Assembly (NCBI GenBank): GCA_003024785.1 | Contig: PUQB01000013.1 | Span: 806,001 to 870,000 of the forward strand | Reading direction: 5' to 3' | Length of the DNA: 64,000 nucleotides | Origin: Selaginella tamariscina | Taxonomy: Eukaryota > Streptophyta > Lycopodiopsida > Selaginellales > Selaginellaceae | Shown: positions 5,898 through 62,925 of the stretch, piece after piece | Position numbering within the stretch: the stretch's first letter is position 1 | How the letters are laid out: every line of letters starts with the position of its first letter | Made by a program: the position numbers and the translations under genes | The notes under the pieces: model-generated | What the model saw: the letters and a program-made list of their open reading frames with translations, nothing else | Databases searched by the model: none | Told to the model about the DNA's origin: nothing

Positions 5898-5997
5898 GTT
5901 TGATAGTAACTGTTTTCATAGCTCCCCGATTTTTGATTACTTTTTTTCCCCTTGGTTCTTCTCCTTTGTTTTCCTCCTTTTTTTTCTTTCATAGATC

Positions 5998-6744
5998 ATG
6001 GCCGTTTTTGAGCAAATTCAACGCGAGCACCAAATGTTGCTTCATGAGCTGGCCACTTTGCGCCAAGTGGTCACCGATCTGCAAGGCTCCACCCATGCGG
6101 CACATGCAGCTGCTGATGCATCCTCCAAGGCTGTTGCGCAGGCTCTCTTTCAGGCATCGGTGGTTCCTTCTTCATCGAACTTTTCTCCGGAGCTGAAGAT
6201 CAGCATGCCAGAAAAGTTCAGTGGCAACCGTGCCAATTTTCAAGGTTTCCTGAATCAGATCCGGCTCTTGATCCGCATGCAACCACGCCACTACTCGACT
6301 GATGCACAAAAGGTTGGCCTTTTGGCATCCTTGCTAAGTGGATCTCCTCGGGCTTGGGTTGCCCCTTTGCTGGAACATGACGATCCATTGATGGAAGATT
6401 TTGAAGGATTCGTGGCTGCCTTTGAAGCCTGCTTTGGAGATCCTGATAAGTACCATTCCGCATGCACGAAGTTACGCAAGTTCACACAAGGATCCCGACC
6501 AGTTTCTGTTTATGCATCCGAATTTCAACAACTTTGCACGAACGTTCCATGGGATGAGACTGCATTGATCGAACATTTCCGTTTTGGGTTGAAGGATGAC
6601 GTGAAGGACCTTCTCCTTACGTTACCGGATGCCCAAACCTTAGCAAAGATCATCCAACAGGCCGTTCGCTGTGACAACCGTTTTTCGAATGTCGTCAGGA
6701 AAAATCTCATCAGTAGTTCATGCAAGTCAATCCTGCAGCTGTAG
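5998..6744 (+). pseudogene. gag (capsid) of nested chromovirus
   Basis: The frame starts ATG at 5998, about 100 bases after the 5' LTR. It encodes a coiled N-terminus (HQMLLHELATLRQVV), then the retrotransposon gag/capsid core: EKFSGNRANFQGFLNQI, LLASLLSGSPRAWV, FVAAFEACFGDPD, KLRKFTQGSRPVSVYASEF and FRFGLKDDVKDLLL. Gag assembles the virus-like particle that packages element RNA in the cytoplasm. The frame breaks near 6690, before the nucleocapsid region. The knuckle is found further on, at about 6840-6900 (CGEVKHKVAEC), with a stop just before it. The start matches the related copy at 58 kb, whose ATG is lost. Confidence 0.85.
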
Positions 6745-6779
6745 CACATGTTTCTGTGACACCTTCTGGAGTAGTCCAT

Positions 6780-7451
6780 ATGGAGGTTGAGAAATACAAG
6801 CGTGGTCCACTTTCAGCTGCGGAAAAGCAACGCCGTCGCAGTGAGAACTTATGCTTGTAGTGTGGTGAAGTAAAACACAAGGTGGCGGAATGTCCTGCTA
6901 AAGCCAAGAAGTTCAAGACGTGCAAAGTTGAAGCCGAAGTTCAATGTCCACTCCGTCTAGGAGCCGCAAAGTTGGACGTAAGTGCAGGCTCCATTGGTGT
7001 TGCTCATACCATTTCATCACTCAAGTTTCCTGTACACATTCGCCTCAATAACCGAGAGCTCAAGGAGTTTGTCCTGTTAGACACTGGTGCAAATGCATGT
7101 TTCATGGATGACATTTGCAGCTCAACATGGCATTCCGGTGGTGAAGTTGAAGCGTGCAGTTTCTGTAAAGGTGGCCGATGTCGTTTGATTGCTTCTGGCG
7201 TAGTTACCCACGCTACCACACCTCTCTCTTGCAGTCATGGCGCATTCAACTGTTCGATTTCCTTCAACTTGATCAAGACTCGGTCGACTCCCATCATTTT
7301 TGGCATGCCATGGTTCGTTGTTGCAAATCCGCAGATCGACTGGAGGTCTAGGACGCTCACGTTTCCTCTCCAACAGCCAAGATCAATCCTATACCTTCCT
7401 GCGTGCAGGATACATCCTTGGTGTCTGAGGCAGTACAAGCTACAGGATTGA
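6780..7451 (+). pseudogene. Nucleocapsid knuckle and aspartic protease region of nested chromovirus
   Basis: A CCHC zinc knuckle sits at about 6848-6893, broken by an in-frame stop between its first two cysteines. Protease follows: HIRLNNRELKEFVLLDTGAN at about 7037-7095 carries the DTG active-site triplet, and IIFGMPWF at about 7290-7320 matches the conserved C-terminal protease strand. The protease would process Gag-Pol. The knuckle stop and a shift after about 7130 disrupt the reading frame. The following stretch (7440-7760) is proline/serine-rich linker made of imperfect repeats (PPRQDSPHVSSSAHPQ-type). Confidence 0.8.
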
Positions 7452-7710
7452 TTGTGCCTGTTCCTATATCAGTGTTGAAGACTCCTCCTCGACAGGATTC
7501 ACCTCATGTCAGCTCCTCAGCACATCCGCAGGCTCTCTCCACTCCTGTAAGTTTGCAGATTCCTGTACAGGGTTCTTCCAATCCTATATCAGTGTCGAAA
7601 GTTCCTCCTCAACAGGATCCACCTCCTGTTGGTTCCTCAGCACATCCGCAGGCTTTCTCCACTCCTGTAAGTTTGCGGATTCAGTACAGGGTTCTTCCAA
7701 TCCTGTATTA

Positions 7711-9280
7711 GTGTCGAAGGTTCCTCCTCGACAGGATTCACCTCTTTTCCGTTCATCAGCACTACAGGTTCATCAGGCTCCAGCAAATTCAACACTCCTA
7801 CAGGACGTCCGTTCGCAGTTGGCTACAGACGACTTGGCAAAGAATGTGTTTTCACACATTCATCCTGACGTTGCAAGTTCCTCTTCCTCCAGTTCCCGTC
7901 CAGACTACAACCTGTTCACCATACAGGATGGACTCCTGTACCGGGAAGGTCTCCTGTACGTTCCTGTTGGTGTTTGCAGGACTCGTGTGGTACAGGATTG
8001 TCATGATACCCCGGCTACAGGACATTTTGGTGTGGCCAAGACAGTTGAGTTGGTGACTCGCAACTATTGGTGGCCTGGGTTGCGAGGTTTTGTGGAGAGG
8101 TTTGTACGGAGTTGTGACACTTGTAGTAGGTCGAAGATGCCTCATCATGCACCCTCTGGTCTTCTTCGTCCTCTTCCTGTTCCTTCTGCTCCTTGGAGAT
8201 CCATTTCTATGGATTTCCTCACAGATCTTCCTCCTTCTCATGGATTCGATGTAGTTCTTGTGGTGGTTGACCGTTTCACTAAGCAGACTCATTTCCTACC
8301 CTGCAACAAGACAGCTACAGGTCAGACAACTGCCGAGTTGGTGATCCGTGAGGTGTTCCGACACCATGGTCTTCCTGAGAGCATTGTTTCCGATCGAGGT
8401 CTACAATTCATGTCCAAGTTTTGGCGAGAGCTTCTTCGGAGTCTATAGGTTAAAGCGGATCTTTCTTCAGAATATCACCCACAAACCGATGGGCAGTCCG
8501 AACGCACAATTCAGACCTTGGAACAGTATCTTCGTTGCTTCATCAGTTACCAGTAGGACAACTGGTTGGACCTTCTTCCAATGGCGGAGTTTGCCTACAA
8601 CAACTCTGTCACGCATCTACAGGACAGACACCTTTCTTTGCTCTTACAGGCCACCATCCACGTTTTGACTTTGCTCCTCCCGCTTCTCCTTCTTCCGCTC
8701 CTGCAGTACAGGATCGTCTTCAGCATCTTTAGCAGGTACAGGATGATCTCCAGGTTCATCTTCAACAGGCACAGGAACGATACAAGCATCATGCTAACGC
8801 TCACCGTCAACCGGCACCTGCATACAAGATTGGTGATCTCGTGTGGCTTCTTCGTCGACACATTCGTACCAACAGCCTTCTTCTAAGTTGGATTTTCAAC
8901 GATTGGGCCCTTACAGGATTGTGGCGGCGGTAAATCCTGTAGCTTTCCGACTCGAGTTACCATCCACGGTGAAACTTCATCCTGTGTTTCACACCTCCTT
9001 GTTGGAGCCGTATCATCCTTCTTCTCTTCATGGTCGTGCTTCTTCTCCTCCCCCTCCTGTGGTCATTGCTGGTGAACCTGAGTACGAAGTTGTAGCCATC
9101 CTTGATTCTCGTCTTCATCGCCGCCAACTTCAATACTTGGTGGATTGGAAAGGTTATTTGCCTACCGATCGCACTTGGGAACCTGCATCTAACTTACTCC
9201 ATGCTTCTTCCAAAGTTGCTGCCTTCCATCGGCATTATCCTGCTAAACCAGGTCCTAAGACTCGTGGAACTCGTCCTTAG
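7711..9280 (+). pseudogene. Integrase and chromodomain of nested chromovirus (reverse transcriptase missing)
   Basis: The order is a short linker, then the HHCC zinc domain of integrase (GHFGVAKTVELVTRNYWW to SCDTC, about 8020-8130). The catalytic core follows, with aspartates in SMDFLTDLPP (about 8205) and SDRGLQFMSKFW (about 8390-8425) and the glutamate in [11 protein letters not shown] (about 8478-8510). Then come the integrase C-terminal fold (LGPYRIVAAVNPVAFRLE, about 8900) and a chromodomain (VAILDSRLHRRQLQYLVDWK at about 9090-9150, GYLPTDRTWEPASN after it), ending at a stop at 9278-9280. Stops at about 8446 and 8554 and shifts near 8600-8880 interrupt the core. The element should have RT and RNase H before integrase; they are gone, and flanking sequences join near 7760. 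Confidence 0.88.
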
Positions 9281-15600: not shown

Positions 15601-17685
15601 AATGTTCACCAACAATGAACTTTGAAATACTAATATGAATTTAAATGTAAGATTTTTAAATTTAACAATTACCATATATGCATTTGTATATACAGATTAT
15701 GATGTTTTTATCAATTCTTATGGTTAATAATAGTAATTTTATTTTGTGAAAATTATGTGTTAATACTTAGTTGTAACTCATTTTTAGGAGGGAGTGGTAA
15801 ATAGAGATTGGGGTTTCAATTCCATAATAATATGTATTTTAATTGATTTCCATGAGGATAATTAAGGGAAAGATTTTGCACAAACATATATATTGGAAAA
15901 AACCACCTACACCAAGTATTTCCTCTACATCATTCTCTATAGCATCTATATAACCTTTTGGAATTTCATGTCATTTATCCCCACATTTATCTCATGTACA
16001 CCCCTTGTAAGCCAATATTATTTACCTTTGGGTTTTTAACAAGGATTCTCATAGTGTCAAAGTGTTCTCAGTTGGAATGCACATGTAATCCCTAAAGTTC
16101 ATGACTCTTAAAAGGGTCACTAATGTCAAATTTGAACATAACTTTATTAATGTACTTAATTAACAACTTCAAGTACGGCTTCCCAAAAAAAAAAATTAAA
16201 GTTCATCACTGATCAAACATCCCCATAAGCTTTTAAGATTTTAAGGTTTACTATTTACAGCTCCTTAGTAACTGGTTTTGTTGGTGGTTTAAGAAAATTA
16301 AGATATTGACAAAGAATTATTATTGAGAACATTTTAGTATGGGTTCTCAATCCCTTTTACGAGAAAGTTACCTTTAGATATCAATGATCAAACATCTCAA
16401 TAAGCCTCTAAAATTTCAAGGTTTAGTGTTTGCAACTCCTTAATAGTTAGTTTTGTAGCCTTCCTCTCAATAGGTTGAGATCTTAACAAAGAACTACTTT
16501 TGAAAACATTATTTAACAAATTAACCTTAAAAGTGTTCCATCGTGAGATTACCTGAATTTCTTAATATTTAGAATACCCTCTTCCAAATTAAGGTTTTAA
16601 TTTTCAAGATTTAAAGCCATCTTACAAATATGCTCAAACAATAAGAATCAGTATATTTTAAATAAAATATTGTCATTTAACATTTGTAAGTTAGAATAGA
16701 ATGCTAGTGACAAGTTTTACTAAACCAATTAGCAAATTAATCAATATTTAGTATCTTTTATTAAATGACATTAAATTACTGAAATTGCTAGCAGAGGGGC
16801 ATGACTATTATAACCAATTAGAGAGCTCTAACATATAACTGTTATACAAGGAATTTATTGTGATTATATTGTCACTTACTAAAATATATTCAATTGGTAT
16901 TGAAGATGTTATTGTTTACAAGTGTGTGTATCTCTCTCTCTATATATGTGTGTGTGTGTGTGTGTGGGTGTGGATACATGAAATACAAATTAAATCATTT
17001 CTTTTGAAATAAAATATTTTCAAAATATTGCTCATGTCTAGTTAATTTTGAATTGGTCACTCACTGATATAGAATGATGAAAATTTACACAACAATAATA
17101 AAAATTTAACTACAATATAGGGTCAAATGATAAATAAAAAGTCCTCTATAAAGATTAATATATTTAAATACATGTAACAATTTAAAGAGTCTCAGCAAAG
17201 AGATGCCCTTTCATATAACATACGCATATAAATTAGAATGTATAGACATGATATGTTTTATTTCATGAATATAAGATAATTTTATGCGTATATATGTTTA
17301 GTACACATGAACACTACCTAAGAAAAATGAGTTTGACAAACTATACTTGTACTAAAACATTTTTATTTAAATGTCAGTTTATACATTACAATGGGTGTTG
17401 GCAAAAAAAGGCTTCGTACATAAGATAATTCAAGCTTATTTTGGTACATATCTACATATTCCCTAAAATATCTTGGAGTATTTCATAAAATGGGATTTCA
17501 TATTAAAAAATAAAATGCATTACATATATGTTGACTAGGCTTAAAATTATCAATAAGCTATAAATAATACAAAAAGATTAAGACATACAATCTCGTAATT
17601 TTACAGATTCAAGTGAATGCCGTCTTCCACATCCGGCAGCATAAAAGACATGTTTAGTGAAGTCCTCCATATAGAATATGCGTAC
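12626..17685. other. 5-kb AT-rich stretch without recognisable genes
   Basis: Both strands were read and no frame with family-level similarity was found; only short chance frames occur. It contains a small candidate inverted-repeat element at 13986-14255, a TG microsatellite at about 16948-16970, and a TTTAGGG-complement pair near 15277 that is too short to matter. It is probably old decayed transposon or intergenic DNA. Confidence 0.6.
13986..14255. repeat. Candidate MITE-like fragment related to element A/B ends
   Basis: The left part (about 14002-14060) is an inverted copy of the A/B right-end segment: GCTAAAATGAGAATGATACA followed by TGAAAATGGAAAT. The right end (about 14208-14240, CATTCCCATTTTAGTTAC) is the same motif in direct orientation. 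The two ends thus face each other across about 200 AT-rich bases, as in a terminal-inverted-repeat derivative. Identity of the outermost bases is weak, so the ends are approximate. Confidence 0.4.
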
Positions 17686-17693
17686 ATGTACAT

Positions 17694-17900
17694 GGGTCTC
17701 GGCGAAAAGGAGGCTCCGGCTCAGGAGGCTTCATATTATTCTAGTATATTCGCGGATATTCTAGGGTTATTCTAGCATATTCTAGCATATTCTCAAGAAT
17801 ATTCTAGAATATATAAGTTTTTTTAATATGCCGACTGGTTTAATATACGCCGACTGGCTTAATATATGCCCACTGGCTTAATAAGACATTATCCTAAACC
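17694..17900. repeat. Left terminal inverted repeat and subterminal repeats
   Basis: The first 45 bases pair with the right end at about 26245-26293. Then come several TATTCTAG / ATTCTCAAGAATATTC repeats (about 17735-17815), then three direct copies of (T/C)GCC(G/C)ACTGG(T/C)TTAATA spaced about 21 bases apart (about 17829-17882). The last motif resembles the GCCGACTGA arms found upstream of the methyltransferase gene. These may be transposase-binding sites (inference). A short CCTAAACCCTAAACC lies at about 17892. Confidence 0.65.
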
Positions 17901-17909
17901 CTAAACCAT

Positions 17910-20900
17910 TTATCCTTGTAGCACCGGTGGGTCATGAACTCTGTTGCAATTCACCAGCAAACGGTGGACCTCCATGTCACTGAGCGATCGCCTTTGTAGA
18001 AAATATGTGACTTCCGGGTTCAAGCCAAGCACACGGCTATAGACGAAGTACATGTGTACACATGGGCTCCAACTTTTGCTCTTCTGAAATGTAGAACAAC
18101 TGCATGAAGGATAAGTATTAATAGTCACCTTTGCAGAGTCATTTCCTGCCGACACAACGAAAGCCTCCTTCCGTCCTCTAGCTGTCACTTCAACATTTCG
18201 CACACAACCTAAAAACGTCTTGGCCTTGCGGAAATTCTTCTCTTGTTCCTTAGACATTTTTGTTGGAGTCCGAACCATACGTCCTTCGAAAGGTGGAATT
18301 GTTGTAGATCCAGCTCCACGTGGTGGCGATGGTGTTTTGTCCTTCTGACCCTCATCTACTCTTCCTGCCATCCCCTGTAAACCTTCCAGAACAAAGCCTG
18401 CATCCTGTAGTTCTCTGACCTCCTCACTTGTCAGCTTCGTTTCCTTGAGCACAGGCCAAACCGTTGGTGGTGTTGGAATACGTGACCGAAGAATTTTGCC
18501 GTTTGGCCGCGTGAAACACCCTGAATCTTTTGGGCAGAACCACATCATCTGTTGTACATACTCCTCATTCCCCAAGGCATCAATGTACATTCGTTTTCCA
18601 TAGAATCCTGGTGCTGGCACTCTGCTTGGATAACCGATTGGTTTTCCACACAGAGCAGTTCCTTCCTGATTCATCCCCAAACACTTAACCTTACTGGATG
18701 CTCCGATTCGTCTGATGGCCCACTCTGTTTGAGCAATCTCTCTCTCCGAAACCTCTTCGAACCTTAACCTCTTTCTCCTGTTGTTTTGGACCACCCGCTC
18801 TGTGTACTCTACATCATGTCTGTGTGAACGTCGAGCATCAGACTGTTCTGTTCCTGTGACTGTTCTCCTAACAGTTTGCACTCGAACGTTAGTGGTACAC
18901 GTGAACTCCGGGCTGGTCAAGTGTTCCTCGCCTTCCACCAGATTAATAATTGTTGATGGAGATACACTTTTCCCCTCAGAGAGTTTGCGTTGCACTCGTT
19001 TCAACAGAGTTTCCTTCGAAGGCCCTGACCCTGTATACCTCCCTTCTATTGCCGCTTTCACCTTCGCACTCTGCATAACTGCATCGGTGAGGTCTAACAT
19101 TGTCGCCTCCAGCAGTGGTACTCTTTTGGCCAATCTTGCTCTTCTTGCTCTAGCGTGAATCACTTCAGCATTGTTTGTAGTTGGAACGCTCGCGAGTCCT
19201 TCTTCTGTCATGTCTCCCAGTTCCGCCATGGAGATGTGGTCCTCATGCCTGATCCACCAAGACAGCCATGTCTTCAAAGCTCGAATGTTTGACGCTCGTC
19301 CTTCCCAAAGACTCGAGAATTGCCAGTTGTTCTTTCTTAGATTGTTCATTCAGTGCTGCAGGCCAGGCACGAGCAAGCTTCATGTGTTCTTCGCGATGTT
19401 CTTCTGCGATCCATTTCTTTGTCACCTGACGCACGGATTGCATAAAGTGAAACAGACAGCTTCTTTCCCTCCCTTTCATCTTTGCTCCGTTGTTGAATAC
19501 TTGGCGCAAGGCTATCAATATCGCTCCAGCCTCATCCGACATGAAACCAGCAAAGTTGACATTCTCCAAACCCTGCTTCTTACAAACCTCTAGCATTGTG
19601 TTCAAGAACTTCAGCACTGCAACATTATCTTCGCGGCACATATCTGCGTAAGCTATAGTCACCATGGATCTGACACTGCAAGAGAGCGTTAGATAACGAA
19701 GATTAGAAAGTGTTATGAAGAGTTTTACAACTTACAATGGGTCATAAAGGTGTATTCCAATTGTCGCCCAGTCTGGTATGCGGTGCGTGTGGTCCAGAAC
19801 AACCCATTGATCATGAAGGTCTCCTCCACTTTGACACCTTCTGATGTACTCAACTCCTGAACCCGGTCCCTCAACTGTCATTTTGAAGATCAGAGGCTGC
19901 TCCTCAGCACCATGCAGTTCCATCCCTGGAACATGTATGACGTGAATGAAAGGTATTGGCAGCTTTGTCTTCAGCTCCAGAAGACCCTCGTAACCCTCTC
20001 TAAAGTGTGTCTCCTTCTGTCTTGATTGTGTAATCCAGTCCCGAGTCCTAAAGAAAAGGTCACGTCAGTGTGTAGAGATCTAAAAAAAAATACCTTCGAT
20101 GGTTTGTTAGAGGTTCAAGTTTTGAGAGTAAACCAGTGTACGAGACTTCTCCTTCTTCCTTGAAAAGTTCTTCAAAGATGAGCTCACGCGCGGCTTGAAA
20201 CTCAATCACTCGTTGATTGGTTCGCGGACTGCTCTTTACCACGTTGCTGACACTAGATCTGGCTCGCTGAACGTTTGAAGCTGACACTGAGGGGCTGACT
20301 GGATGCTGATGAACACCTCTGTGAATGAACAACCTTGTAAAAGAAATGTCGTCTGGCAGAATGTAGTACACATAAGCCGGACAAGTGTGCACCAGCAATG
20401 GCTCCTCTCCACAATGCTTACATTTTATGCCTATTACTTTGCCTGTCTCAGTTGTCTTTGCCTTCTCCACAGCACCCTTGAAGTGACATTCATTTGCTTT
20501 CTTCTCAAAAGCCAAGTAGGGGCAAGTAGGATTGATGCATTGGAGATGTCCGACACATGAACTTCGACTGACTCGCGCCGGAACATGCCAGTGTGTTGTG
20601 CTCGGGTGTGTCCAATGGTAGCAGCCATCCTTGCGATTCATCCCCGAGTACTTCTCTGTGCTTTCTGTCTTAGGGGGAAGTTCGAAAATGACATTTCCAT
20701 TGTATATCTGCGGTAGTTCAGAGACTCGTTTAACTTCAGACGAACCAATGAGATCCTTCCCTATCCTACATTTGTCTGCTCTTAGAAGACACACCAGCAT
20801 GGATTCCTCACGCTCCTCTGTCCGCAACCTGAACAACGGGCCCTTTGCCGGGCACAATGTGTAAAAGACAAACTGGTTTGATGCATTGCCTTCTGGTAAC

Positions 20901-21073
20901 AACTCCACATCTTCTCCAGAACTCGCAGAAACTGACATCAATTGAACCACATGTATACTGAACCAACAAGGAATGTTGAAAGCAATGTGAAGATCATGTT
21001 CAAACACAAAAGCATTTCCATCTTCATCGACTGGGAAATCTTTGTCAATGCCTTCATAGGTAACTCTGGCCAT
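17910..21073 (-). CDS. MULE-like transposase (WRKY/GCM-type zinc domain, DDE core, SWIM zinc finger)
   Basis: There are three coding exons on the minus strand, 20094-21073, 19736-20047 and 17910-19675, with GT-AG introns and matching phases, for about 1000 residues. Exon 1 ends with a zinc-binding domain whose cysteines (VGHLQCINPTCPYL, CKHCGEE) precede a GVHQHP terminus. This is like the HxH ending of WRKY/GCM/FLYWCH DNA-binding domains. Exons 2-3 carry an RNase-H-fold core of the Mutator type. The candidate first Asp is in QWVVLDHTHR, the second Asp is in FAGFMSDEAGA, the C..H pair is in SCLFHFMQSV, and the Glu is in TNNAEVIHARARR. The C-terminus has another cysteine-rich patch (about 18500-18680) and a SWIM finger (SCSC then SPCVHMYF, about 18020-18095), both usual in such transposases. 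The reading frame shifts once between about 19340 and 19245 without a plausible intron, so this copy may be inactive or the base may be an assembly error. The start at 21073 is the first ATG of the long frame. Confidence 0.85.
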
Positions 21074-21673
21074 GACAACACAAGGAGAAAGCTCGGTGGT
21101 TTAGGAAAGCAAAGCAAAAGATTAAACACACTTTCTCTTACCAAAAAAAAATTACAATCGTTAACAATAAACGTGAATACACGTTTGTATATAATTAATT
21201 CTATGCTGCCCAGTTCACAGTGTTCTTAATGATGTCCTCTCTAGTATCACCGATTTAATTTAATTTCTACCTTTTATGATTTGAAATATCTTCACATTTA
21301 CCAATTATTCACATATTTTAAAATAAACCCTAAATATTAATGTCACATTTATTCCGTAGGGTTCACTGTTTTCATTGCGGCTAGGGTTTTTTGGTAGATA
21401 GGGTTTACTGTTTCCATTGCGGCTAGGGTTCTTTCAATCTCAGATCTGTTTCCACTGCGGTAGATCCAGAGGGTTCTTTAATCTCAGATCTCAGAGTTAC
21501 GGTTTCCACTGCGGCGCCATCCATTCGACTCGATTCGTGCAGCGCCCAAGTATAACAATGGAGATTTCTGTGCCGATTTAGATTCTCGGCACCATCCTGC
21601 TCAGCCGGCGGCCACAAGGTATGTGTAATTTCTGTATTTTATGATTTGCTGCTCAAAGTATTTCTTTTTCCAG
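21074..21673. promoter_or_regulatory. Divergent promoter region and first untranslated exon of the methyltransferase gene
   Basis: It lies between the two divergent genes. Repeated GCGGCTAGGGTT / GATAGGGTTTACTG units (about 21355-21500) look like a promoter or transcript-start region. The segment ending CGGCGGCCACAAG at about 21618 is followed by GTATGTG, a good splice donor, and the next acceptor TTTTTCCAG is at about 21673. This is therefore a likely leader exon. No TATA box could be assigned with confidence. Confidence 0.5.
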
Positions 21674-22863
21674 AGATATAGGGTCTTCTTATTTGTGCCG
21701 ACTGAGAGCAACGGCACCATCCTGGTTCAGTCGGCAAACACAAGGTATCGTCGATTTATTTATTTTTTTCCTTGCGGCTCAAGTATACGTGTCACAATGT
21801 TTTTTTTTCAGAGTTAATGGGTCTTTCCATTTGTGCCGACTGAGAGTGACGGCACCATCCTGGTTCAGTCGGCAAAAACAAGGTATTTTCGATTTGTTTT
21901 TTTTCTTTCTGGCTCAAGTATTCGTATCACAAGGTTTTTATTTTCAGAGTTAATGGGTCTTCCCATTTGTGCCGACTGAGAGTGACGGCACCATCCTAGT
22001 TCAGTCGGCAGCCACAAGGTATGTTCGATATATTTATTTTTTGCTTTCTGGATCATGTATTCGTATCACATTGTTTTTTTTCAGAGTTAATGTGTCTTCC
22101 ATTTGTGCCGACTGAGAGTGACGGCACCATCCTTTTCAGTCGGCAGCCACAAGGTATTTTGAATTTGTTTTTTTGCTTTCTGGCTCAAGTATCCGTATAA
22201 CAATGTTTTTTTTTCAGAGTTAATGGTCTTCCCATTTGTGCCGACTGAGAGTGACGGCACCATCCTTCTTCAGTCGGCAGCCACAAGGTATTTTGAATTT
22301 TATTTTTGCTTTCTGGTCAAGTATTCGTATCACAATGTTTTTTTTCAGAGTTAATGTCTTCCCATTTGTGCCGACTGAGAGTGACGGCACCATCCTTCTT
22401 CAGTCGGCAGCCACAAGGTATTTTGAATTTGTTTATATTTTGCTCTGCGGCTCAAGTATCCGTATAACAATGTTTTTTTTCAGAGTTATAGTGTCTTCCC
22501 ATTTGTGCCGACTGAGAGTGACGGCACCATCCTTCTTCAGTCGGCAGCCACAAGGTATTTTGAATTAGTTTTTTTTTTCTTTGCGTCTCAAGTATTTCTT
22601 TTAAAACAGTTAATGGGTCTTCCCATTTGTGCCGTCTGAGAGGGACGGCACCATCCTATCTCAGTCGGCACCATTATCTCTTCTGTGCCGTCTGACAGAG
22701 TCGGCACAAACTATCTCAGTAGGCAGGTTTTTTCTTCTACATCTCTCTGCCGACTGAGAGGGTCGGCAGCATCTAGCTTGAGTCGGCAGCCACAAGGTTA
22801 GTCATCTTTGTTTGTTTTTTTATTTTGACTCCTCATCAATTGACTTGTGTGTTTACTTTCCAG
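21674..22863 (+). repeat. Eight tandem 5' UTR exon-intron units, each with an inverted repeat
   Basis: Units begin just after an acceptor-like CAG at about 21674, 21812, 21948, 22085, 22218, 22349, 22484 and 22610 (spacing 126-138 bases). Each has an exon-like block of about 69-71 bases, AGTTAATGGGTCTTCCCATT onward, ending GCAGCCACAAG. GTATTTTG or GTATGTTC follows, then an intron-like block with a poly-T tract and CAG. Inside every block, TGCCGACTGA and TCAGTCGGCA are complementary arms around about 20 bases, enough to form a hairpin. A 71-base unit is not a multiple of three, so a coding role is unlikely. After the last unit more GCCG(A/T)CTGA arms follow (22630-22795), then a donor at about 22799 and an acceptor at about 22863 just before the start codon. 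Confidence 0.88.
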
Positions 22864-22873
22864 AGTTCCCAAA

Positions 22874-25800
22874 ATGGTGAGAGCTTCAAAACGTCTACTA
22901 GAGACTGCGCCTGATGAAGAGCCACGGGAAGAGAAGAGGATATCGAAGCAGAAGCGAGGCAAGAGAGGAGAACCATCTAATGTACCAAAGGAGGATCCTC
23001 CAGTGACTCAGTCTGGAGTAGTAGCAGTTGAGCAAGAACAGCCTCCACCAACAATCACAGATTTCCCGGAGAGCTCGTCGCAGTTGCCTCCTTCATCCGC
23101 TGAGGTTGCAGTCCTGAACGAGCAAGTGCAGATGACAGAGGCAGCTGAAGCTAGCGAGGACGACTTGGAGGAGGCAGTCAGCAAAAAGAGAGGCCGCGGG
23201 AAAGCTGATTCAAAAGGCAAGAAGGCGAAGAGCGATAAGGAGCCGAAGGAGTTATACAGCATACCGGCGAGCCTGCATTTGGAGAGCTCAGCAAACCTGC
23301 TCGACAAAATTACTATCAAGGGACTTGGTGATCCTCCTGATGTGCCCATCTGCAGAATACATTCCAACGAGGTGGTTCGACGAGTGAACCCAGGGGACTT
23401 GGACAGGCTGGTGTCATCGTTGAAGAAGGCTGGTTATCTACGCAACACGGCCATGTTCATTCTGTCCATCGGAGATCGACTCACTGCTGAGGAGCTATCG
23501 GAGCTGTCGAAGGACACGATTCAGTACGAGCAGCACCGGTCTTTCGAGCAAGCTCTTACTCAGCCGGAGTACAAACAGTGGGCTTCAAGGCTCTCAAACA
23601 GGAAGTTTAGCTGTTGGGACGGGAACCATAGGCTACAGGCTTTGCAGAAGCTGTACCGAGAGGATGCAGAGGACAACCAGCGATGGGCTATTGCGTTCGA
23701 TCGAGTTTCATCTCCACGGAGGAACCTCGACATTCTTCAATTGGTTTCGATGTTCCAATCGATTAACATGTGAGTATTTTCTTTTCTTTTTGTTAAGAGT
23801 TTAGACTTAGTTTCGTTGAACAGATCTTCAGCAACATCTGTGGAAACAACGCTACCACATATTCTCCTCGCTGTAAAGGCGGTCTGCACTAGTACAGAAG
23901 GAACTCAGAAAATCCTCGAGTCACTCACGGAGGTTGATCGTCTTGAGGTGCGGAAGTGGAAGGAGAGTTCATCAGGAAAGACGGCTTGGCATCCTCTTCC
24001 GAACCTGATCTGCGCAAAGATACTTTTCAAGGTAACCTCCGATTTAATTTATAGGAAAGAAATTTTTAACTTGTTCTATGTGCAGAACGAGATCGACGAT
24101 GATCTCGACAGAGCAGTCACCAGTGCTAAGGGCAATCCACAGGTTGAGGTGAACCTGAAGCAGCTAGTATACAAGAAGCATGACAAGCGTATGCACAAGT
24201 TCCTCTCCATCATAGACCCAGACTTGGGGGAGGAGTGGTTCCAGAAGGTGACGAACATCTCTCATAAGCAGTGTCGCTGGATGGGCATTGAGAAGCTGTA
24301 TGCGATGTCAAGGGCGAAGATTCCAAACATGCTGCGACTCCGATACCTCAACAAGCTCACCCGTCTCGAATCCAAGGCAGAACAACAGACACTTGGGCTA
24401 CCGGGCATGCAGGACAAAGAGTGGATCAAGTGGTTCACCTTGGACTTATATTGGAAGGCTGTGCGCGAGGAAGCCATTCAGATCCTTAAGGGGTTGCGAG
24501 AGGATGGTGAAGAAGTTGGAACGGATGTCGACTTCATGAGCTGGTTTGACGAGATGAGAATTCGGAGCAAGTGCCTGGTCTTTCAGCCCTTCCATGACGC
24601 ATACGGTTCACTTATTCGATGGAGCCGAATGAGTTTCTGGAGCGTGAGGAATCTGCGCGTCGGATGATATGGAGGTAAGCTTTCAATCCAGCATTGCTAC
24701 TGTCTGACTTTGTGTTGCAGGTTCATACTGGCGAAGCAAATGACACCGTCCCATACGATGAAGCTGTGGACAGATCATACAAGCGAGCCTCACATGTGGT
24801 CGAAGAGCAGAGGAGCTCTAACACCGTTCGAACGGGAGCATGTTCCATTCTGGCTCGACTGTCCGTCGCAACAGCCACCAGCTTGGGAGAGCACACTATT
24901 CGACATGCACGCCAATGATCTACCAGCGATTCTTTGGGAGCCAGAAGAAGTAGAGGCTATCAAGAAGAGCAAGATGAAGAAGACGGTGCGGAAGACAACT
25001 ACACCTGCAAAGGGATCGGGAGCGGGACCAAGCTCTTCTACAGCACCTCCGCCAGCATTCGACTTTACAATCAATGAGGTACAGCCACTTGTAGCTAGTT
25101 TGGACATCAAGGACGACCTGATGACCTTCATCCCGACCCTGGCTGCATCCCGTGGATCCTACGACCTAGCTGTGTGCGACATGGAGGAGATGAGCAGGTC
25201 TTTCTTCGAGCCAGGTGCTTCCCAGACAGAGGTGTACACCAAGCTCCGAGAACAGGTTGACAGACTACATACGGTTGAGTCACAAACGTTGTTCCAGGAA
25301 GTGGTAGGTGAATACGGCTTCAACCTCATCATCCTCGACTTGCCCAATGAGCTTGTATATGGAGGTGCTAGCATCAACAAGGACATTGTGCAGCTAGATC
25401 CGGTGAAGTTTGAGGAGGCCTTGCAGTTCAGTGGAATGCACTTGGCAGCGAGTGGTTTCATGGTCGTCTTCGCGAGTTCTCCTTCTGTTTCGGCGGTGAT
25501 TCAGGCGGCTGCAGTAATCAACTTGGAGGTTGCAGGGACTTACAGCGTCTACCGTGCACGAGGTGGGGATACCGTGACAAAATTAAGGTAAGCTAGCTAT
25601 TCAAGTTCAAGTTTAACTTGGTCTATGTGGCAGGATAACTTGTTAGTTCTCTTGGTGCTGCAAAGCTCTGAGAAGAAGTCGAAGAGGCCAAACCCTCTGG
25701 CGTTGACGAACACGATCCTCGTCGACACTGCCGACCGTTATCAGGAGGCTTGGTAAGGAAGTGCTTTGCTATGTTTATCCTAATGGAAGATTGTGCAGGA

Positions 25801-26096
25801 TTATGATTCAACCGAAGAGTGTTCGACTCATGCAGCTTTTGATCGAGCGTCTCAGTAGACCTGGCGACCTAGTCTGGGATATTGGTTCCGGAACCGGGTC
25901 ATCATTGTTAGCTGCCGTCGAGCTCGGAAGGAATATTATAGGAACCGAGAAGAGTTTCGAACTCTCTAGGTTGGCAACAAACAAGCTTGCAGAGAACATT
26001 AGACCAGAAGAGTTACCTACTCAAACACCTCCACGTCCAAGCGTAACTGGTGGTTCGAGAACTGCAGCTTTACTTAAGATGAAGAAGAAACTTTAG
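22874..26096 (+). CDS. ParB-like domain plus beta-class DNA amino-methyltransferase, carried by the transposon
   Basis: The exons are 22874-23769, 23824-24031, 24086-24674, 24721-25587, 25634-25752 and 25799-26096, about 990 residues. The N-terminus is lysine-rich and nuclear-localisation-like (KRGRGKADSKGKKAK). Residues of about 150-290 form a ParB/Srx-like fold: PGDLDRLVSSLKKAGYL, then FSCWDGNHRLQAL, resembling the GxxR motif of ParB. A long helical middle follows. The C-terminal third is a DNA methyltransferase in beta-class order. A motif IV-like strand comes first (FNLIILDLPNEL, in place of DPPY, about 25319-25354), then KSVRLMQLLIERLSRPGDLV and motif I, WDIGSGTGSSLLAAVELGR (about 25877-25933), then IIGTEK. 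ParB-methyltransferase fusions are a phage/plasmid arrangement, so a prokaryotic origin is likely. Oddities: one frame shift near 24597-24620, a phase mismatch between exons 4 and 5 as drawn, and a degenerate motif IV. Methylation of adenine or cytosine is possible. Activity is unproven. Confidence 0.8.
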
Positions 26097-26159
26097 CTAA
26101 TGTATATTGAGTAATAAATTAAGCTAATATAAAAAAAAATTAAAAAGAAATACAACAGT

Positions 26160-26293
26160 TTTAATAGAATTCTTTTTTGCCGACTGAGGCCAATACTGCC
26201 GACCAGAAAGAATATTCCAAAATATTCTAGAATATTCTTGAATATTCGAGCCCAGGCCTCCTGGGCCCCAAGCCTCCAAAATGGCGACACTCC
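26160..26293. repeat. Right terminal inverted repeat and subterminal repeats
   Basis: It contains TGCCGACTGA and TGCCGACC motifs (about 26178-26205), then AATATTCTAGAATATTC repeats, then GGCCTCCTGGGCC and AGCCTCC with GGCGACAC at the border (about 26245-26290). These pair with the left terminus. It lies about 65 bases past the methyltransferase stop codon, so the gene sits tightly against the right end. Confidence 0.68.
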
Positions 26294-26301
26294 ATGTACA
26301 T

Positions 26302-39106: not shown

Positions 39107-42100
39107 TTATGCAAAGGTCGATTTAATGGCATCAGCTACAAGCTCCATCTGCATTCCTCTGCTGCCTTTGACGAGCACCACATCACCAGGTCTAAGCTTC
39201 TTAATAAGCTCTTTTCCAAGTATTACAGAGCTTTCACACTTCAAGACTTCACACTCCCCAGAAACTAAGTAACACAAAGCATTGAAATAAGAATGGTTTA
39301 ATATATAAATAAAAGTAATAATTCAATAACATAATTATCGTATTAAATCTAGTATATACATGAGCAATACATATCATGTATAAAACTCATTACTAAAGCA
39401 ATAAGTAACATATAATTCATACTCTGTGCATGCGTCCGTGACTATCATAAAATATTTACTAATATCCGTATGTATGAGTATCTCCACTACAGTGGGTGCT
39501 TGCGTGTGTGTGTGTGTGTGTGAAACCTAAAACTATATAGTAAATCTTATAGTGACATTGTACTACAACATTACGAACACATTCTATATTTATTTCTCTA
39601 GTATTAATATTATACTATATTTATTAATAAAAGTATTTTCTTAGTAACTTTTTCATAATTTTTACCTTGACGGTCCAAAGCTTCACAAAAATGAGTCCCT
39701 GCTACAGCAATAAGTCCCACGGGCATATTTTGGCATCTTTTAATGGTGCCTAAATGAGCGGCTTGGGATATACTTCCAAGCTCTAGCATATCCCCCAGTG
39801 CGACAACTTTCCTACCATGTAGGCCCTCCAGAATATCCAATGCAGATGTCATGCTTACCGGATTAGCGTTGTATGCATCGTTAATTAGCTTAAGTCCCGA
39901 GTTTAACGTTTCCAGCCTGGAACATGCACTTACTTAACACACACATACGCATATGTGTGTCATGCGTGTTTAATTGATCATATATACAACCTAGACAATA
40001 TATACAAAGAAGACCTATTATATTTTGTAACATACAATTCAAATGTACATAAACTTTATACATACACTTGTACATCTCCATATATTCCTTAGACATTTAT
40101 ATTGCACATATATACTATATATAAGCTATACATATTATATGTAGATGTTATGTTCACACGAAAATATATTATACGCATGCTGCACTCACGAGTTATGAAC
40201 TTAAGTATACATTTTAAGTTATATACAATGTAATCCATAAGTATAATACAATAAAAAACTGTAATGATATAAAATTTATGCTTCTGCACGTACATATACA
40301 TATACATGTGTGCAGTGTGTGTGAACTCTAACCTGGATCGCATTCCAACCGTTGAAAATCTGGAGATGGATCTGGCCGCTACATCAAGTGGGACTCCAAG
40401 GCTTGTTGCTACGCAAACTGCTGCACATGCATTTGTTGCATGATGATGGCCGGGGCAATGCATATCCACCTTAGAAGAAAATTCACCTGCAAATATATAT
40501 AGATATCAAAACCCACCATGTGTGACGATCACTAACATCAACAAGAAGAGTTTTGTGTCGTGCGCGCGCGCGCGCGTGTGTGTGAGAGAGAGAAGTACCT
40601 TGCTGTAGCGTGAAACTCACACCTCCTCCACCATCCGTAACTTCCACGTTTAGCAATCTCTCACATCACTCGCTTCTGAGCGTCCAAATAGCTTCTGTAA
40701 CATGTATACTTAGATATATCTGTGCGTATGTATCTACGGGTGTATACATATGCATATATTTACATGCACCAATAAACTCATATAAAGGAAGCAGATATGC
40801 AGATATTTATATATTTACATCTGTAAGGTGTATGAATACATACATGCATGCAGAGACTCGTGTGTGTGATGAGAGAGAGAGCGAGAGAGAGAGAGAGATC
40901 TTACGGTTTGTGCTCCACTCGGAACAGGCAAAGCCATAACCATAGGATCATCCGCATTTAAGACACAAGTATTTCCCACGCTAGCATCTGTGAAGAGCTC
41001 CCCTTTAGCAGCAGCAATTTCTTCAACACTTGCAAAGTTCTCCAGATGTACAGGGCCAATGTTTAAAACAACGCGTGTGTGTGGTGATGCAACTCTGGAC
41101 AGCGTAAGGATTTCCCCAGCGTGATTCATTCCCATCTCTAACACACAAGCTGAGGAATTAGATGGCATTTCCAGGAGTGTTAGTGGGAGACCTATGTGAT
41201 TGTTCATGTTTCCCCTTGTCTGTCATATATGTGTATGAGCATATTTAACATACATGCATGTAGATATAGATAACAAATACACGCATACGCATGCGCACGC
41301 ACTTGATGGATGTGTCCAAGGGATTCTAGAGCCAATGAAGTCATAGCTCTAGTTGTGGTTTTCCCGCAGCTTCCAGTAATACCAATCACATGTCCAGTGT
41401 ATCTCTTTCTCACTGATATTGCTAGCAAATGTAAGGCTTGTAACGTGTCTTCGACCTCTACAAAGCCAACAGGCCAGTCTTCCGGCATTTTCCTCCCTAT
41501 GGCCCCGCACAACCTAAAAGTCGTGTGTGTGTCTGTGTCTGTGTCTGTGTCCATATATATGTATAAGTATTGTGTTTTGTTACATGTAAGATTATACCCT
41601 CGATTACCTAGACCCTGAATGCATATATACGTATGCACGCATGCATGGTATGTGTGTGTGTGTGTGTCTATATAGATAGATAGATAGATTTTACCAGCTG
41701 CTAGAGCATCAGCAAGGAAATGGTTCCCATCAAAATGGTCACCAATCAATGCTAAGAACCATTCTCCACGATGTATTTTCCGACTATCGGTGCAAATGCT
41801 GCCTGGAAATCCATGTTTGCGTTGAATTCCTTTCACAACCTGCACACACCAGTGTGCGTGTGTGTGTGTGTTTTTAACATATACATGCACTTTAGCTGCA
41901 AATATTGACTAGTAAAAATCAAATTACTTAATGGTAAATAGAATATAATGCACACCAAGTCATATAGTACAGATATACACACGTACACACGCACACATAC
42001 ATATATCTTTGTACAATTAGTAGTATATGCATATTCTGATCCCTGTGTGTGCGTGCGTGTAAATATCAGCAAATGTATTATAATATATATCATTTAGCTG

Positions 42101-57320: not shown

Positions 57321-57906
57321 TGTCACGACCCAATATAGGATATAGGATACAGGTTACAGGATATTCATACAAGATATGCCACATGATATGCCTAGAGGAT
57401 AAAGGACATGTGGACTCATCTTAGCCTCTGCATGTATGCAGCCACTTTTAGATACATGCAACCACTTTTAGCACTCATGCCTAGATTAGCTCTTGGAGTT
57501 GTGAGCATAAAAGCTCCGACCTAATTGTTGTACAATTAGTTACTATCAACACCAGTCATTCTACGATCATTCTTGTTCTTGTCTTGTTTGTATTTTGCTC
57601 TTTGCCTCCTCCTTTTGTCTTGCCTCTAGTTCCTATCCTGCTCTTGTCTTGTTCTCGGATCTTGTCCTGCCCTCGGATCCTGTCATGTTCCTGTCTTGCT
57701 CCTAGATCCTGTTCTGCGCCTTCCTGTCTTGCTCATGTCTTGCTCTCGGATCCTATCCTATTCTCGTCTTGCTCCTGGATCCTGTCTTGCGCCTGGTCTT
57801 GCTCCTGAGTTCCTAGTTCCTGTCCTGCTCCTGTCCTGCTCCTGAGTTAAGCCTTCTTGTTCTTGGAATCCTGCTCTCTTCATGGTTCCTAGATCGTGGC
57901 TTGACA
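57321..57906 (+). repeat. 5' LTR of full-length chromovirus
   Basis: It runs TGTCACGACC to GGCTTGACA and carries ATAAAAGC at about 57507. It is shorter than the LTRs of the copy at 5 kb because it has fewer GGATATGCC and CCTGCTATCC units. Confidence 0.9.
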
Positions 57907-57989
57907 GTTTAATAGTAACTCCTTTTATAGCTCTCCGTTTTCCAGCTACTTTTTTTCCTTGATTCTTTTCCTTCGTTTTCCTCCTTTCT

Positions 57990-58930
57990 CTTTCATAGAT
58001 CAGGCTGATTTTGAGCACTTTCAACACAAGCACCAAATGTTGCTTCATGAGCTGGCCACTTTGCGCCAAATGGTCACCGATTTGCAAGGTTCCACCAACG
58101 CGGCACATGCAGCTGCTGATGCATCTTCCAAGGCTGCTGCACAAGCTCTCTCTCAGGCATCGGTGGTTTCCTTGTCATCGAACTTTTCTTTGGAGCCGAA
58201 GATCAGCATGATAGAAAAGTTCAGTGGCAATCGTGCCAATTTCCAAGGTTTCCTAAATCAGATCTGGCTCTTGATCCGTATGCAACCACGCCGCTACTCG
58301 ACTAATGCACAAAAGGTTAGCCTTTTGGCATCCTTACTAAGTGGATCTCCACGGACTTGGGTTGCCCCCTTGCTGGAGCATAACGACCCATTAATGGAAG
58401 ACTTTGAAAGTTTCGTGGCTGCCTTTGAAGCCTGCTTTGGAGATCCTGATAAGTACCGTTCTGCATGCACAAAGTTACGAAAGCTCACTCAAGATCCCGA
58501 CCAGCTTCCGTCTATGCATCCGAATTTCAGCAACTTTGCACGAACATTCCATGGGACGAGATGCATTGATCGAACACTTCCGTTTTGGGTTGAGGGATGA
58601 CGTGAAGGACCTTCTCCTTACGTTACCGGATGCCCAAACATTAGCGGAGATCATGCAACAAGCCGTTCGCTGCGACAACCGTTTGTTCGAGCGTCGTCAG
58701 GAAAGATCCCGTCAGCAGTTCCTGCAAACCAATCCTGCAGCTGTGGTACATGTTCCTGCACCACCTTCTGGAGTAGTTCCTATGGAGGTTAGAAATCCAA
58801 GCGTGGCTCTCTTTCCGCTGCTGAGAAGCAACGTCGCCGTAGTGAGAACCTATGCTTGTATTGTGGTGAGCAGGACACAAGGTGGCAGATGTCCTATTAA
58901 AGCCAAAGTTCAAGACGCGTGAAGTTGAAG
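57990..58930 (+). pseudogene. gag region of full-length chromovirus
   Basis: It encodes the same capsid core as the copy at 5998 (HQMLLHELATLRQMV, EKFSGNRANFQGFLNQI, FVAAFEACFGDPDKY, FGLRDDVKDLLLTL). A frame shift lies near 58490 and a zinc knuckle remnant (ENLCLYCGE) at about 58844-58872. The canonical start codon is lost. It cannot make a full Gag. Confidence 0.82.
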
Positions 58931-59039
58931 CTGAAGTTCAGTCGGAAAACTTCAATGTCCACTTCGTCTAGGAGCCGCAAGTTGGACGTAGGTGCAGGCT
59001 CCATTGGTGCTGCTCATACCATTCCATCACTCAAGTTTC

Positions 59040-59990
59040 CTGTACACATTCATTTAATAATCGAGAGCTCAAGGAGTTTGCCCTGTTAGACACTGGTGCA
59101 AATGCATGCTTCATGGATGACACTTTTGCAATCAACATGGCATTTCGGTGGTGAAGTTGAAGCGTGCAGTTCCTGTAGAGGTGGCCGATGGTCGTCTATT
59201 GCTTCTGGCGCAGTTACCCATGCTACCAACCTCTCTCTTGCAATCATCATTCAACTGTTCAATTTCCTTCAACTTGATCAAGACTCGGTCGACTCCCATC
59301 ATTTTGGGCATGCCATGGTTCGTTGTTGCAAATCCGCAGATCGACTGGAGGTCTAGGACGCTCACGTTTTCCTCTCTGCAGTAGGATCAATCCTGTACCT
59401 TCCTCGTGCAGGATACATCCTTAATATCTGAGGCAGTACAAGCTACAGGATTGACTGCCTGTTCCTGTACCAGTGTTGAAGACTCCTCCTCGACAGGATT
59501 CACCTCATGTCAGTTCCTCAGCACATCCGCAGGCTCTCTCCACTCCTGTAAGTTTGCGTTCCTGTACAGGGTTCTTCCAATCCTGTATCAGTGTCGAAGG
59601 TTCCTCCTCAACAGGATCCACCTCCTGTTGGTTCGTCAGCACTCATAGGCTTCCCTCACTCCTGTGCAACCACGGACTCCTGTACAGGATTCTTCCAATC
59701 CTGTACACTCGTCAACATCCACACAGGTTTTTTCCCAATCCTGCCTCTTTTGTTACTCCTTTGTTCCACCCCCCAAGATCCTTCCTCTTTTTCAGTCACA
59801 GCTCCCTCCTTCTCCTCTCCGAGTTCTTACCACTACCATGCATGAACTTGCCACTGATCCTGCTCCTTTCCACCTTTTTGCCTTTCAAGTAACTCCTACG
59901 TCCTCTTTACCTTTCCTGTATCTGACTCTCCTGTTTTTAATCTCCTTCTCCTACTCCTTTCCTTCTCCTCCTTCTTCCCTACCATCCAAG
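59040..59990 (+). pseudogene. Protease remnant and proline/serine-rich linker of full-length chromovirus
   Basis: LLDTGANACFMDDT at about 59083-59124 holds the aspartic protease DTG triplet, and GMPWFVVANPQIDWRSR is at about 59305-59356. The following 600 bases encode a PPRQDSPHVSSSAHPQ-type low-complexity linker in changing frames. Confidence 0.75.
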
Positions 59991-59999
59991 TACACGACT

Positions 60000-61420
60000 T
60001 TAAGGACGTTTTTGACAAGCACAAGGCTGCAGTTCTTCCTGTTCACAGGTCCTACGACTGTCCTATTGATCTTGCGAAGGAAAGACTCCACCGTTCGGAC
60101 CGATTTATGCATTGTCACCCACAGAGTTGGAGGTTCTTCAGTATATCGAGGACAACTTGGCATCCGGCTTCATTCGTCACTCAAAGTCCCCTGCAGGAGC
60201 CCTATCTTCTTTGTCAAGAAGAAGGATGGGAGTTTACGTTTGGTTGTGGACTACAGGGGTTTGAATCAAGTCACCATTCGGAATCGGTACCCGTTGCCAT
60301 TGATCCCGGAACTTCGATCGGCTGCGAGGAGCAAAGGTGTTCACGAAGATCGACTTACGAGGGGCCTACAACCTTGTACGATTCGTCCAGGCGATGAGTG
60401 GAAGACTGCCTTTCGTACAAGGTATGGACACTTCGAGTACACGGTGATGCCTTTCGGCCTTACCAATGCCCCAGCTGTGTTCCAACATATGGTGAACGAC
60501 ATCGTGACTTCTTGGACCAGTTTGTGGTGATCTACCTCGACGACATTTTGATTTTCTCCAAGGACCAGGCGGCACATGACAAGCATGTACGATTAGTTCT
60601 ACAGCGGCTTCGCGAGCATGGCCTGTATGCGAAGTTGGAGAAGTGTTTTTTCGATAGGGATTCTGTGGAGTTCTTGGGCTACATCGTCTCTCCTGCTGGC
60701 GTTTCCATGGACATGCACAAGGTGAAGACCATCGTGGAGTGGGAGAGGCCCAAGTCTGTACGAGATGTACAATGTTTCCTTGGCTTTGCAAACTTCTACA
60801 GGCGTTCATACAGGACTTCTCCAAGCGTGTACTTCCACTCACGGAACTCACCAAGCGCACAGGTTTTCTCTTGGTCCGACAAGGCGGAACATGCATTCAC
60901 AACACTCAAGGACGTTCACGACAGCTCCGATTTTAGCACATCCTGATCCTTCTCGTCCTTTCTTCGTTGAAGCAGATGCCTCGGATTTTGCAGTAGGATC
61001 CGTCCTATCACAAGTTGGAGAAGACAAGTTGCTTCATCCTGTAGCTTTTCACTCTCGTAAGTTCCTTTCGGGAGATCAATTACGAGATTCATGACAAGGA
61101 ACTCAAGGCCATTGTGGATTCGTTCAGGAGTGGCGGCATTTCCTGGAAGGTGCTGCACATCCTGTACAAGTTCTTACGGATCACAAGAACCTGGAGTATT
61201 TCAAACGGATCACCTGGAGTATTTTCAAACGGCTCGAGTTCTCAGTCGGCGATAGGCTAGGTGGGTGGAGTTCCTATCACGTTTTGATTTTGTCATCGTC
61301 TATAGGCCCGGTTTTTGGAATGGCAAGGCGGACGCATTGTCTAGGCACTCTTACCTTGCACCGACCCCGGGCGATCCTGCATATGACTGTCAAAGGCAAG
61401 TGTTGTTGGGTCCTATCGAT
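60000..61420 (+). pseudogene. Reverse transcriptase and RNase H of full-length chromovirus
   Basis: RT motifs in order are [19 protein letters not shown] (about 60215-60270), [20 protein letters not shown] (about 60435-60490) and the YLDD catalytic box in [15 protein letters not shown] (about 60525-60570). KLEKCFFDRDSVEFLG and [11 protein letters not shown] follow. RNase [21 protein letters not shown] (about 60958-61017) and [12 protein letters not shown], then [20 protein letters not shown] (about 61286-61345). Together they copy element RNA into DNA. Shifts occur near 60330, 60515, 60810 and 61080. Confidence 0.88.
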
Positions 61421-61429
61421 TCCAACTTG

Positions 61430-62925
61430 CGGCACTACAGGTTCATCAGCTCCAGCAAATTCAACACTCCTACAGGACATCCGTTCGCAATTGGCTACAG
61501 ACAACTTGGCAAAGAATGTGTTCTCACACATTCGTCCTGACATCGCAAGTTCCTCTTCCTCCAATTCCCGTTTAGACTACAAGTTGTTCGCCATATGGAT
61601 GGACTCCTGTACTGGGAAGGCCTCCTGTACGTTCCTGTTAGTATTTCCAGGACTAGTGTGGTACAGGATTGTCATGATACCCGGCTACATGACATTTTGG
61701 TGTGGCCAAGACAATGGAGTTGGTGACTCAAATTATTGGTGGCTTGGGTTGCGAGGTTTTATGAAAAGGTTTGTACGAAGCTGTGACACCTGTACAGGTC
61801 GAAGATGCCTCATCATGCACCTCTAGTCTTCTTCATCCTCTTCCTGTTCCTTCTTCTCCTTGGAGATCCATTTCTATGGATTTCCTCACATATCTTCCTC
61901 CTCATGAATTCGATGCAAGTTCTTGTGGTGGTTGACCGTTTCACCAAACATGCTTATTACCCTGCAACAAGATAGCTACAGGTCAGACAACTGCTGAGTT
62001 GGTGATCCGTGAAGTGTTCCGACATCATAGTCTTCTGAGAGCATTGTTTCGATCGAGGCCACAATTCATGTCCAAGTTTTGGCGAGAGCTTCTTCGAAGT
62101 CTACACGTTAAAGCGGATCTTTCTTCAGGATATCATTCACAAACTGATGGGCAGTCAGAACGCACAATTCAGACCTTGAAGCAATATCTACTCATCAGTT
62201 ACACAACAGGAACAACTGGTTTGACCTTCTTCCAATGGCGGAGTTTGCCTATAACAACATCGTTCACGCATCTACAGGCCAAACACCTTTCTTTGCTCTT
62301 ATAGGCTACATCCACGTTTTGACTTTGCTCCTCTTACTTCTTCTTCTTCCGCTCCTGCAGTACATGATCGTCTCCAGCATCTTCGTCAGATACAGGATGA
62401 TCTCCGGTTCATCTCAGCAGGCACAGGAAGGATACAAGCATCATGCTGATGCTCACTGTTAGCTGGCACCTACATACAAGATTGGTGATCTCGTGTGGGC
62501 TTCTTCGTCGACATATTCGCACCAACAGGCCTTCTTCTAAGTTGGATTTTCAATAATTGGGCCCTTACATGATTGGGGTAGAGGTCAATCCTGTAGCTTT
62601 CCGACTGAGTTACCATCTACCGCGAAACTTCATCCTGTGTTTCACACCTCCTTGTTGGAGCTGTATCATCCTTCTTCTTCTGGTCGTGCTTCTTCTCTCC
62701 CCCTCCTGTGGTCATTGATAATAAACCTGAGTATGAAGTTGCAGTCATCCTTAATTCTTGTCTTCATCGCCACCAACTTCAATACTTGTGGATTGAAAAA
62801 GTTATTTGCCTACTGATCGCACTTGGGAACTTGCATCCAACTTACTCCATGCTTCTTCCAAGGTTGCTACCTTCATTGGCATTATCTGCTAACCAGGTCC
62901 CAAGACTCGTGGAACTCGTCTTTAG
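61430..62925 (+). pseudogene. Integrase and chromodomain of full-length chromovirus
   Basis: The zinc domain and core are recognisable: RSCDTC at about 61775, SMDFLTYLPPHEF-like at about 61870, FMSKFWRELLRSL at about 62067 and [13 protein letters not shown] at about 62138. The integrase C-terminus and a chromodomain (YEVAVILNSCLHRHQLQYL, about 62728-62790) follow. Every block is interrupted by small indels. The purine tract GGGAGGAGGTTC precedes the 3' LTR. Confidence 0.85.

Follow-up and report, generated by a model that had tools for sequence, protein, structure and literature searches.

A two-gene Mutator-like transposon of Selaginella tamariscina with a methyltransferase-derived protein and arrays of a candidate binding motif

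Why would a plant DNA transposon encode, besides a transposase, a relative of bacterial DNA methyltransferases? The question arises from a 64,000-nucleotide stretch of the lycophyte Selaginella tamariscina (assembly GCA_003024785.1, contig PUQB01000013.1, positions 806,001 to 870,000; the window), in which a sequence-only reading had described an 8.6-kb unit between inverted repeats, holding a transposase gene and a spliced gene (here T and M; Table 1). We tentatively propose, at a probability of roughly 45%, that in this unit, a two-gene Mutator-like element (MULE), the methyltransferase-derived M protein binds the element's own motif arrays to control silencing and/or transposition.

We searched the 300.7-Mb genome assembly (1391 contigs), fetched 20 further copies and aligned them to the window element. 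Nineteen cover more than half of the element, and one (L021) aligns over the 3' part only (six best pieces per copy). Both ends are present in 15 of the 20, with a perfect 9-bp target site duplication (TSD) at the expected place in seven of these and in the window copy. The TSD is imperfect or shifted in five copies (L009, L016, L023, L024 and L027) and absent from L013, L017 (whose left end is a contig end) and L020; L018, L019, L021, L022 and L026, which miss one end, were left out of this count. The terminal inverted repeats (TIRs) are imperfect, the element starting with GGGTCTCGGCG and finishing with GGCGACACTC. Copy alignments, TIRs and TSD together confirm a discrete unit whose left end, 17694, is the one first read; the right end is 26292, one base before the 26293 given earlier. 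MULEs have TSDs of mostly 8-11 bp and, in many groups, TIRs (PMC6446971, partial text); both are found here.

When the last exon of M was used as a genome query, all matches listed (150 of 1398 candidates scored) had at least 87% identity, and at least 83 of those listed were 100% identical over the full query. Since the matches are so many and nearly identical, we infer that this family (family 1) is large and recent. Its alignment comprises 19 sequences including the window copy (L021 and L022 were left out; L029 is mostly N).

Gene models were built from splice signals and open frames, not RNA. In both genes the window copy shows frame-shifting differences from all 18 other aligned copies, so that a model made from the window only has false introns; a first M model with two extra short introns was ruled out by copy comparison, both being window frame-shifts. 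Many differences between copies are single-base insertions or deletions, and assembly errors may account for part of these. The M product is 992 amino acids long in the open copies L009, L014 and L015 (three of the 19 sequences), and that of T is 1018 amino acids long in L014, the one sequence of 19 in which T is open. Splice signals are the sole basis for the last M intron, and a few copies (frames of ~167 amino acids) can be read through it. The plus-strand spliced gene with the stretches CWDGNHRLQAL, WDIGSGTGSS and IIGTEK was recovered, each at the position first reported.

The T protein carries the motifs VVLDHTH, FMSDEAG...CLFHF and TTNNAEV, which we take to be the DDE triad of a MULE transposase, and a C-terminal CxC...CxH motif, presumably a SWIM finger; all are also present in the second family described below (copy L030). 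Pfam matches stayed under their cut-offs: MULE reached E 0.13-0.15 on exon pieces and was missing from the list for full-length L014 T, SWIM reached E 0.0086 (window exon) and 0.04 (L014 protein), and the best match of the full L014 protein was DUF951 (E 0.0031).

The same gene pair was sought elsewhere in the genome and found in a diverged family. Searching the assembly with Pfam gave 739 candidates, and among the 150 listed many differ from family 1 in frame length. One of these, L030, a copy of family 2, has the pair in the same divergent order, with T 57% and M 50-55% identical to family 1. Of nine further loci (L031-L039), three (L033, L037 and L038) belong to family 2 and six (L031, L032, L034, L035, L036 and L039) to family 1; no third family was found among these nine. 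A comparison of L014 with L030 shows saturation at synonymous sites and few protein-changing differences (pN/pS 0.279/0.834 over 872 codons of M and 0.263/0.796 over 997 codons of T). L030 itself lies nested in a retrotransposon reading frame (L030 1-600 and 8720-8800), presumably of copia type. Because the pair is kept in two families and both genes are strongly constrained, T and M must have travelled together, and both matter to the element. On this comparison, M is a core gene of the element and not a captured fragment.

What kind of protein is M? As the sequence-only reading held, its end is a beta-class methyltransferase domain. The full protein matches Pfam N6_N4_Mtase (PF01555), the sole Pfam name given to M, above cut-off (E 1.1e-8, 35.8 bits, cut-off 26.7), over profile positions 164-219 of 221 only, and contains the S-adenosylmethionine (SAM)-binding motif I region of beta-class DNA amino-methyltransferases. 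The end of M also matches phage methyltransferase families (phrog_67, E 1.8e-10) and, weakly, M.MboIIA (PDB chain 1g60, E 0.0021). In phages, tblastn with the methyltransferase part returned 795 records (E<=10), none spanning 80% of the query; among the matches listed many are annotated as DNA methyltransferase. Local hhalign alignment reached no further than the motif I half (Prob 97.7 over 64 columns, against at most 0.30 for 20 shuffled queries), and forced-global alignment with eight phage enzymes placed FNLIILDLPN on the SPPY/DPPY motif. The catalytic motif [DSN]PP[YFW] was not found in M, both families having DLPN at this place (16 of 19 family-1 sequences including the window; ELPN in L024, NLPN in L026, and L019 frame-shifted at the motif). 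The missing aromatic fourth residue is probably disabling, which makes DNA methylation by M doubtful.

The segment containing CWDGNHRLQAL had been read as a ParB-type module, for which we obtained no profile, tblastn or fold support. Full-length M gave no Pfam match to ParB at a limit of E<=10, HMMER filters dropping most matches above 0.1. Matches of the segment in tblastn were at chance level (one phage and 67 plasmid records), with no ParB annotation in the one and the best 15, respectively. A single-sequence AlphaFold model, run to test the ParB fold, failed (pLDDT 33.9). The motif TGCCGACTG, described below, presumably resembles ParB boxes.

No relative of M was found in the protein database (7995 top word-sharing candidates, E<=1e-3; the query was the window-based M model, wrong at two places) or in one IMG/VR scan, and none of T outside the genome in the protein database (5501 candidates scored, E<=1); in the searches made, neither had a full-length relative outside the source genome. 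Because the database does include eukaryotic proteins (the Ty3-type integrase of the window matches nr/uniref records of Centaurea and Phytophthora), the lack of relatives is informative, with the caveat that transposon genes often go unannotated.

What, then, could M act on? The region between the divergent genes is a probable bidirectional promoter and leader, and its tandem repeat contains seven inverted pairs TGCCGACTG...CAGTCGGCA, 30-31 bp apart, and two single sites. Apart from the 9-letter TGCCGACTG, families 1 and 2 have little in common between T and M: two 8-mers within it are the only abundant 8-mers that their intergenic regions share (minimum counts 18 and 16; next 3). Exact GCCGACTG sites number 16 and 20 in the two regions, against means of 0.03 and 0.02 (200 simulations each). 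Family 2 has a different array spacing, its form being the palindrome CAGTCGGCATGCCGACTG every 39-40 bp, and L030 has an exact site at its right end, near-exact ones at its left end and a further exact site in the left flank (position 165). Of the 20 GCCGACTG sites of the window, all but one fall inside the element, 16 of these 19 between the genes. Across the 19 family-1 sequences, 245 of 247 are in non-coding element DNA (left end 27, intergenic 203, right end 15), with one in T, none in M and one in flanks (totals of 60, 62 and 28 kb, respectively); old copies hold few (L023, one). Across the genome we counted 1135 occurrences of the family-2 palindrome and 901 of a family-1 28-mer, reversed controls giving 0. 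A methyltransferase match was found, among the matches listed, within 4.5 kb of six of the eight and 14 of the 32 motif clusters listed (palindrome and 28-mer searches), counted irrespective of orientation and with two of the 14 sharing one match. That the motif has persisted through the replacement of its spacing and surroundings suggests recognition by an element protein and makes it a candidate binding site. Positions 21613-22870, upstream of M, also resemble a series of mini-exon/mini-intron units duplicated in tandem, with repeated donor-like CACAAG/GTAT and acceptor-like TTTTCAG/AGTT.

Table 1. Positions in the window of the element, its genes and its repeats (TSD, target site duplication; TIR, terminal inverted repeat)
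Feature	Position	Strand	Remarks
Whole Mutator-like DNA transposon	17694..26292	.	two divergent genes; sharp ends common to multiple copies
Left TSD, 9 bp	17685..17693	.	CATGTACAT; same letters as 26293-26301
Right TSD, 9 bp	26293..26301	.	CATGTACAT; same letters as 17685-17693
Left TIR region	17694..17820	+	starts GGGTCTCGGCG; with GAATATTC-type repeats
Right TIR region	26206..26292	-	overlapping GAANNTTCNNGAA units
Left subterminal GCCGACTG copies	17829..17882	+	2 exact, 1 degenerate; 19-bp period
Right subterminal TGCCGACTG copy	26178..26187	+	
Transposase gene T	17910..21073	-	exons 21073-20097, 20047-19736, 19675-17910; window copy frame-shifted
Intergenic region between divergent genes	21074..22873	.	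bounded by predicted gene starts
Tandem repeat	21683..22831	.	units 130-138 bp; 16 exact GCCGACTG sites
Gene M	22874..26096	+	six exons; window copy frame-shifted
M exons 1-3	22874-23769, 23824-24031, 24086-24674	+	
M exons 4-6	24721-25587, 25634-25752, 25799-26096	+	
Segment earlier named ParB-like (CWDGNHRLQAL)	23246..23769	+	conserved in second family; identity unproven
Methyltransferase domain, first half	25301..25587	+	motif IV position FNLIILDLPN
Methyltransferase domain, second half	25799..26096	+	SAM-binding motif I WDIGSGTGSS; Pfam N6_N4_Mtase; PDB chain 1g60

In the mechanism that we favor, M, derived from a beta-class amino-methyltransferase, would bind both the intergenic TGCCGACTG arrays and the single sites close to the ends, and would there recruit or keep an active state, as a VANC-like or TnpA-like regulator, countering silencing and/or preparing the ends for transposition. 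It would act mainly by binding, with the SAM-binding module kept and the catalytic motif degraded; binding is favored over catalysis because motif IV reads DLPN, without the aromatic residue, though motif I is intact. The anti-silencing part draws indirect support from the parallel between these arrays and those of VANDAL elements with VANC. Several observations weigh against this proposal. VANC21 motifs lie in one orientation, whereas most sites here form inverted pairs, and M is likened to VANC by arrays, not by sequence. Two of the eight and 18 of the 32 motif clusters have no methyltransferase match within 4.5 kb among the matches listed. The transposase could equally be the motif binder, and the binder is not assignable by homology because no full-length M homologue was found outside the genome.

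A wider formulation, a self-marking system, strikes us as rather unlikely. In it M would recognize the 9-bp site at either end and in the bidirectional promoter, and a DNA mark that M writes, reads or blocks at these places would decide between silencing and transposition. We consider it unlikely, too, that M is an active writer, whose methylation of adenine or cytosine within or close to the TGCCGACTG arrays would mark the element's own DNA. The motif I half is intact, constraint persists in the first half, where motif IV lies (pN 0.333 vs pS 0.846), and the hydrophobic second position of the motif need not disable the enzyme, because DIPY occurs in two of the eight phage enzymes used for comparison; a beta-class N6_N4_MTase deposits N4-methylcytosine at bdelloid transposons (PMC8885841, partial text). 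Against this stands the DLPN motif of both families. Marking by methylation, of the element's own DNA or of host DNA, had been suggested in the sequence-only reading.

Quite unlikely, in our estimate, is that the array serves the transposase as a binding or enhancer site and that M has another role, such as transposition cofactor. Transposases commonly bind subterminal repeats, and sites occur towards either end in the window element and in L030, but most lie between the genes and not at the ends, and M is conserved about as well as T. We regard as improbable an action of the motif at the RNA level, with the tandem units as M leader exons and the inverted pairs forming hairpins: the family-1 units do carry repeated splice-like sequences and one unit folds into a stem, but the fold z-score is just -1.57, the single sites near the ends are unpaired, and the family-2 palindrome has no loop. 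That M has no function and is a passenger picked up by passive capture, of the kind suggested by the frequent capture of host gene fragments by MULEs (PMC6446971, partial text), is very improbable indeed, given that two families at ~50% identity share the pair and its arrangement and that the pN/pS values already contradict it.

How does the proposed two-gene element compare with known systems? Among the closest is VANDAL21/Hiun of Arabidopsis, a MULE with VANA, VANB and VANC and tandem short-motif arrays in non-coding element DNA; here, by contrast, the accessory protein has a methyltransferase domain, and the candidate motif also lies near the ends. In Spm/En, a CACTA element whose proteins differ from T and M, TnpA binds a short motif near the ends and in the promoter and counters methylation. 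MuDR of maize (mudrA, mudrB) and MULEs with MutB, SET or OTU likewise combine a transposase with a second gene or domain (PMC6446971); the word methyltransferase appears nowhere in that text, which lists a SET domain for one Phytophthora group. Mobile elements encoding their own DNA methyltransferase are known: C5 enzymes in Symbiodinium and Klebsormidium retrotransposons, the latter reportedly under purifying selection, and Dam-type enzymes in DIRS; unlike the present element, these are retroelements, and the partial text describes no cognate motif array (PMC5890265). The bdelloid N4CMT is, like the M domain, a eukaryotic beta-class N6_N4_MTase, but it is a catalytically active host gene product fused to a chromodomain, outside any transposon (PMC8885841, partial text). 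In the top listings of full-text searches aimed at it, subscription papers and repeat libraries aside, no paper turned up that describes a DNA amino-methyltransferase gene in a MULE, or this motif. The sequence-only reading likewise knew of no described plant family with this pair; MULEs with extra open reading frames are known, as are methyltransferase-bearing mobile elements.

Near the element ends we also observed perfect three-unit repeats resembling heat-shock elements (GAANNTTCNNGAA or TTCNNGAANNTTC): one at 17797 and three at 26225-26235 in the window, and two at the left of L030 (640-645), against means of at most 0.005 in 1000 simulations. None was found at the right end of L030, and one extra lies at window 47461. 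The element may be stress-inducible. Elsewhere in the window, gag/pol-like reading frames mark two related broken retrotransposons of Ty3/gypsy type (5995-8445 and 57905-61823), the first of which has integrase matches. A minus-strand reading frame at 41207-41908 contains the stretch GITGSCGKTTT, which we take to be MurF-like (peptidoglycan ligase).

Few cases are known of mobile elements fighting silencing with proteins of their own. Here a bacterial-type DNA methyltransferase scaffold is a core gene of a multicopy MULE and comes with a candidate target motif. This motif has outlived the replacement of the DNA around it. It allows the function to be tested directly and offers a handle on the co-evolution of transposons and host methylation. 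Were the enzyme active, the element would supply a plant with an unusual kind of base methylation; if docking on the motif holds, self-control or self-protection of a mobile element would here take an unfamiliar form.

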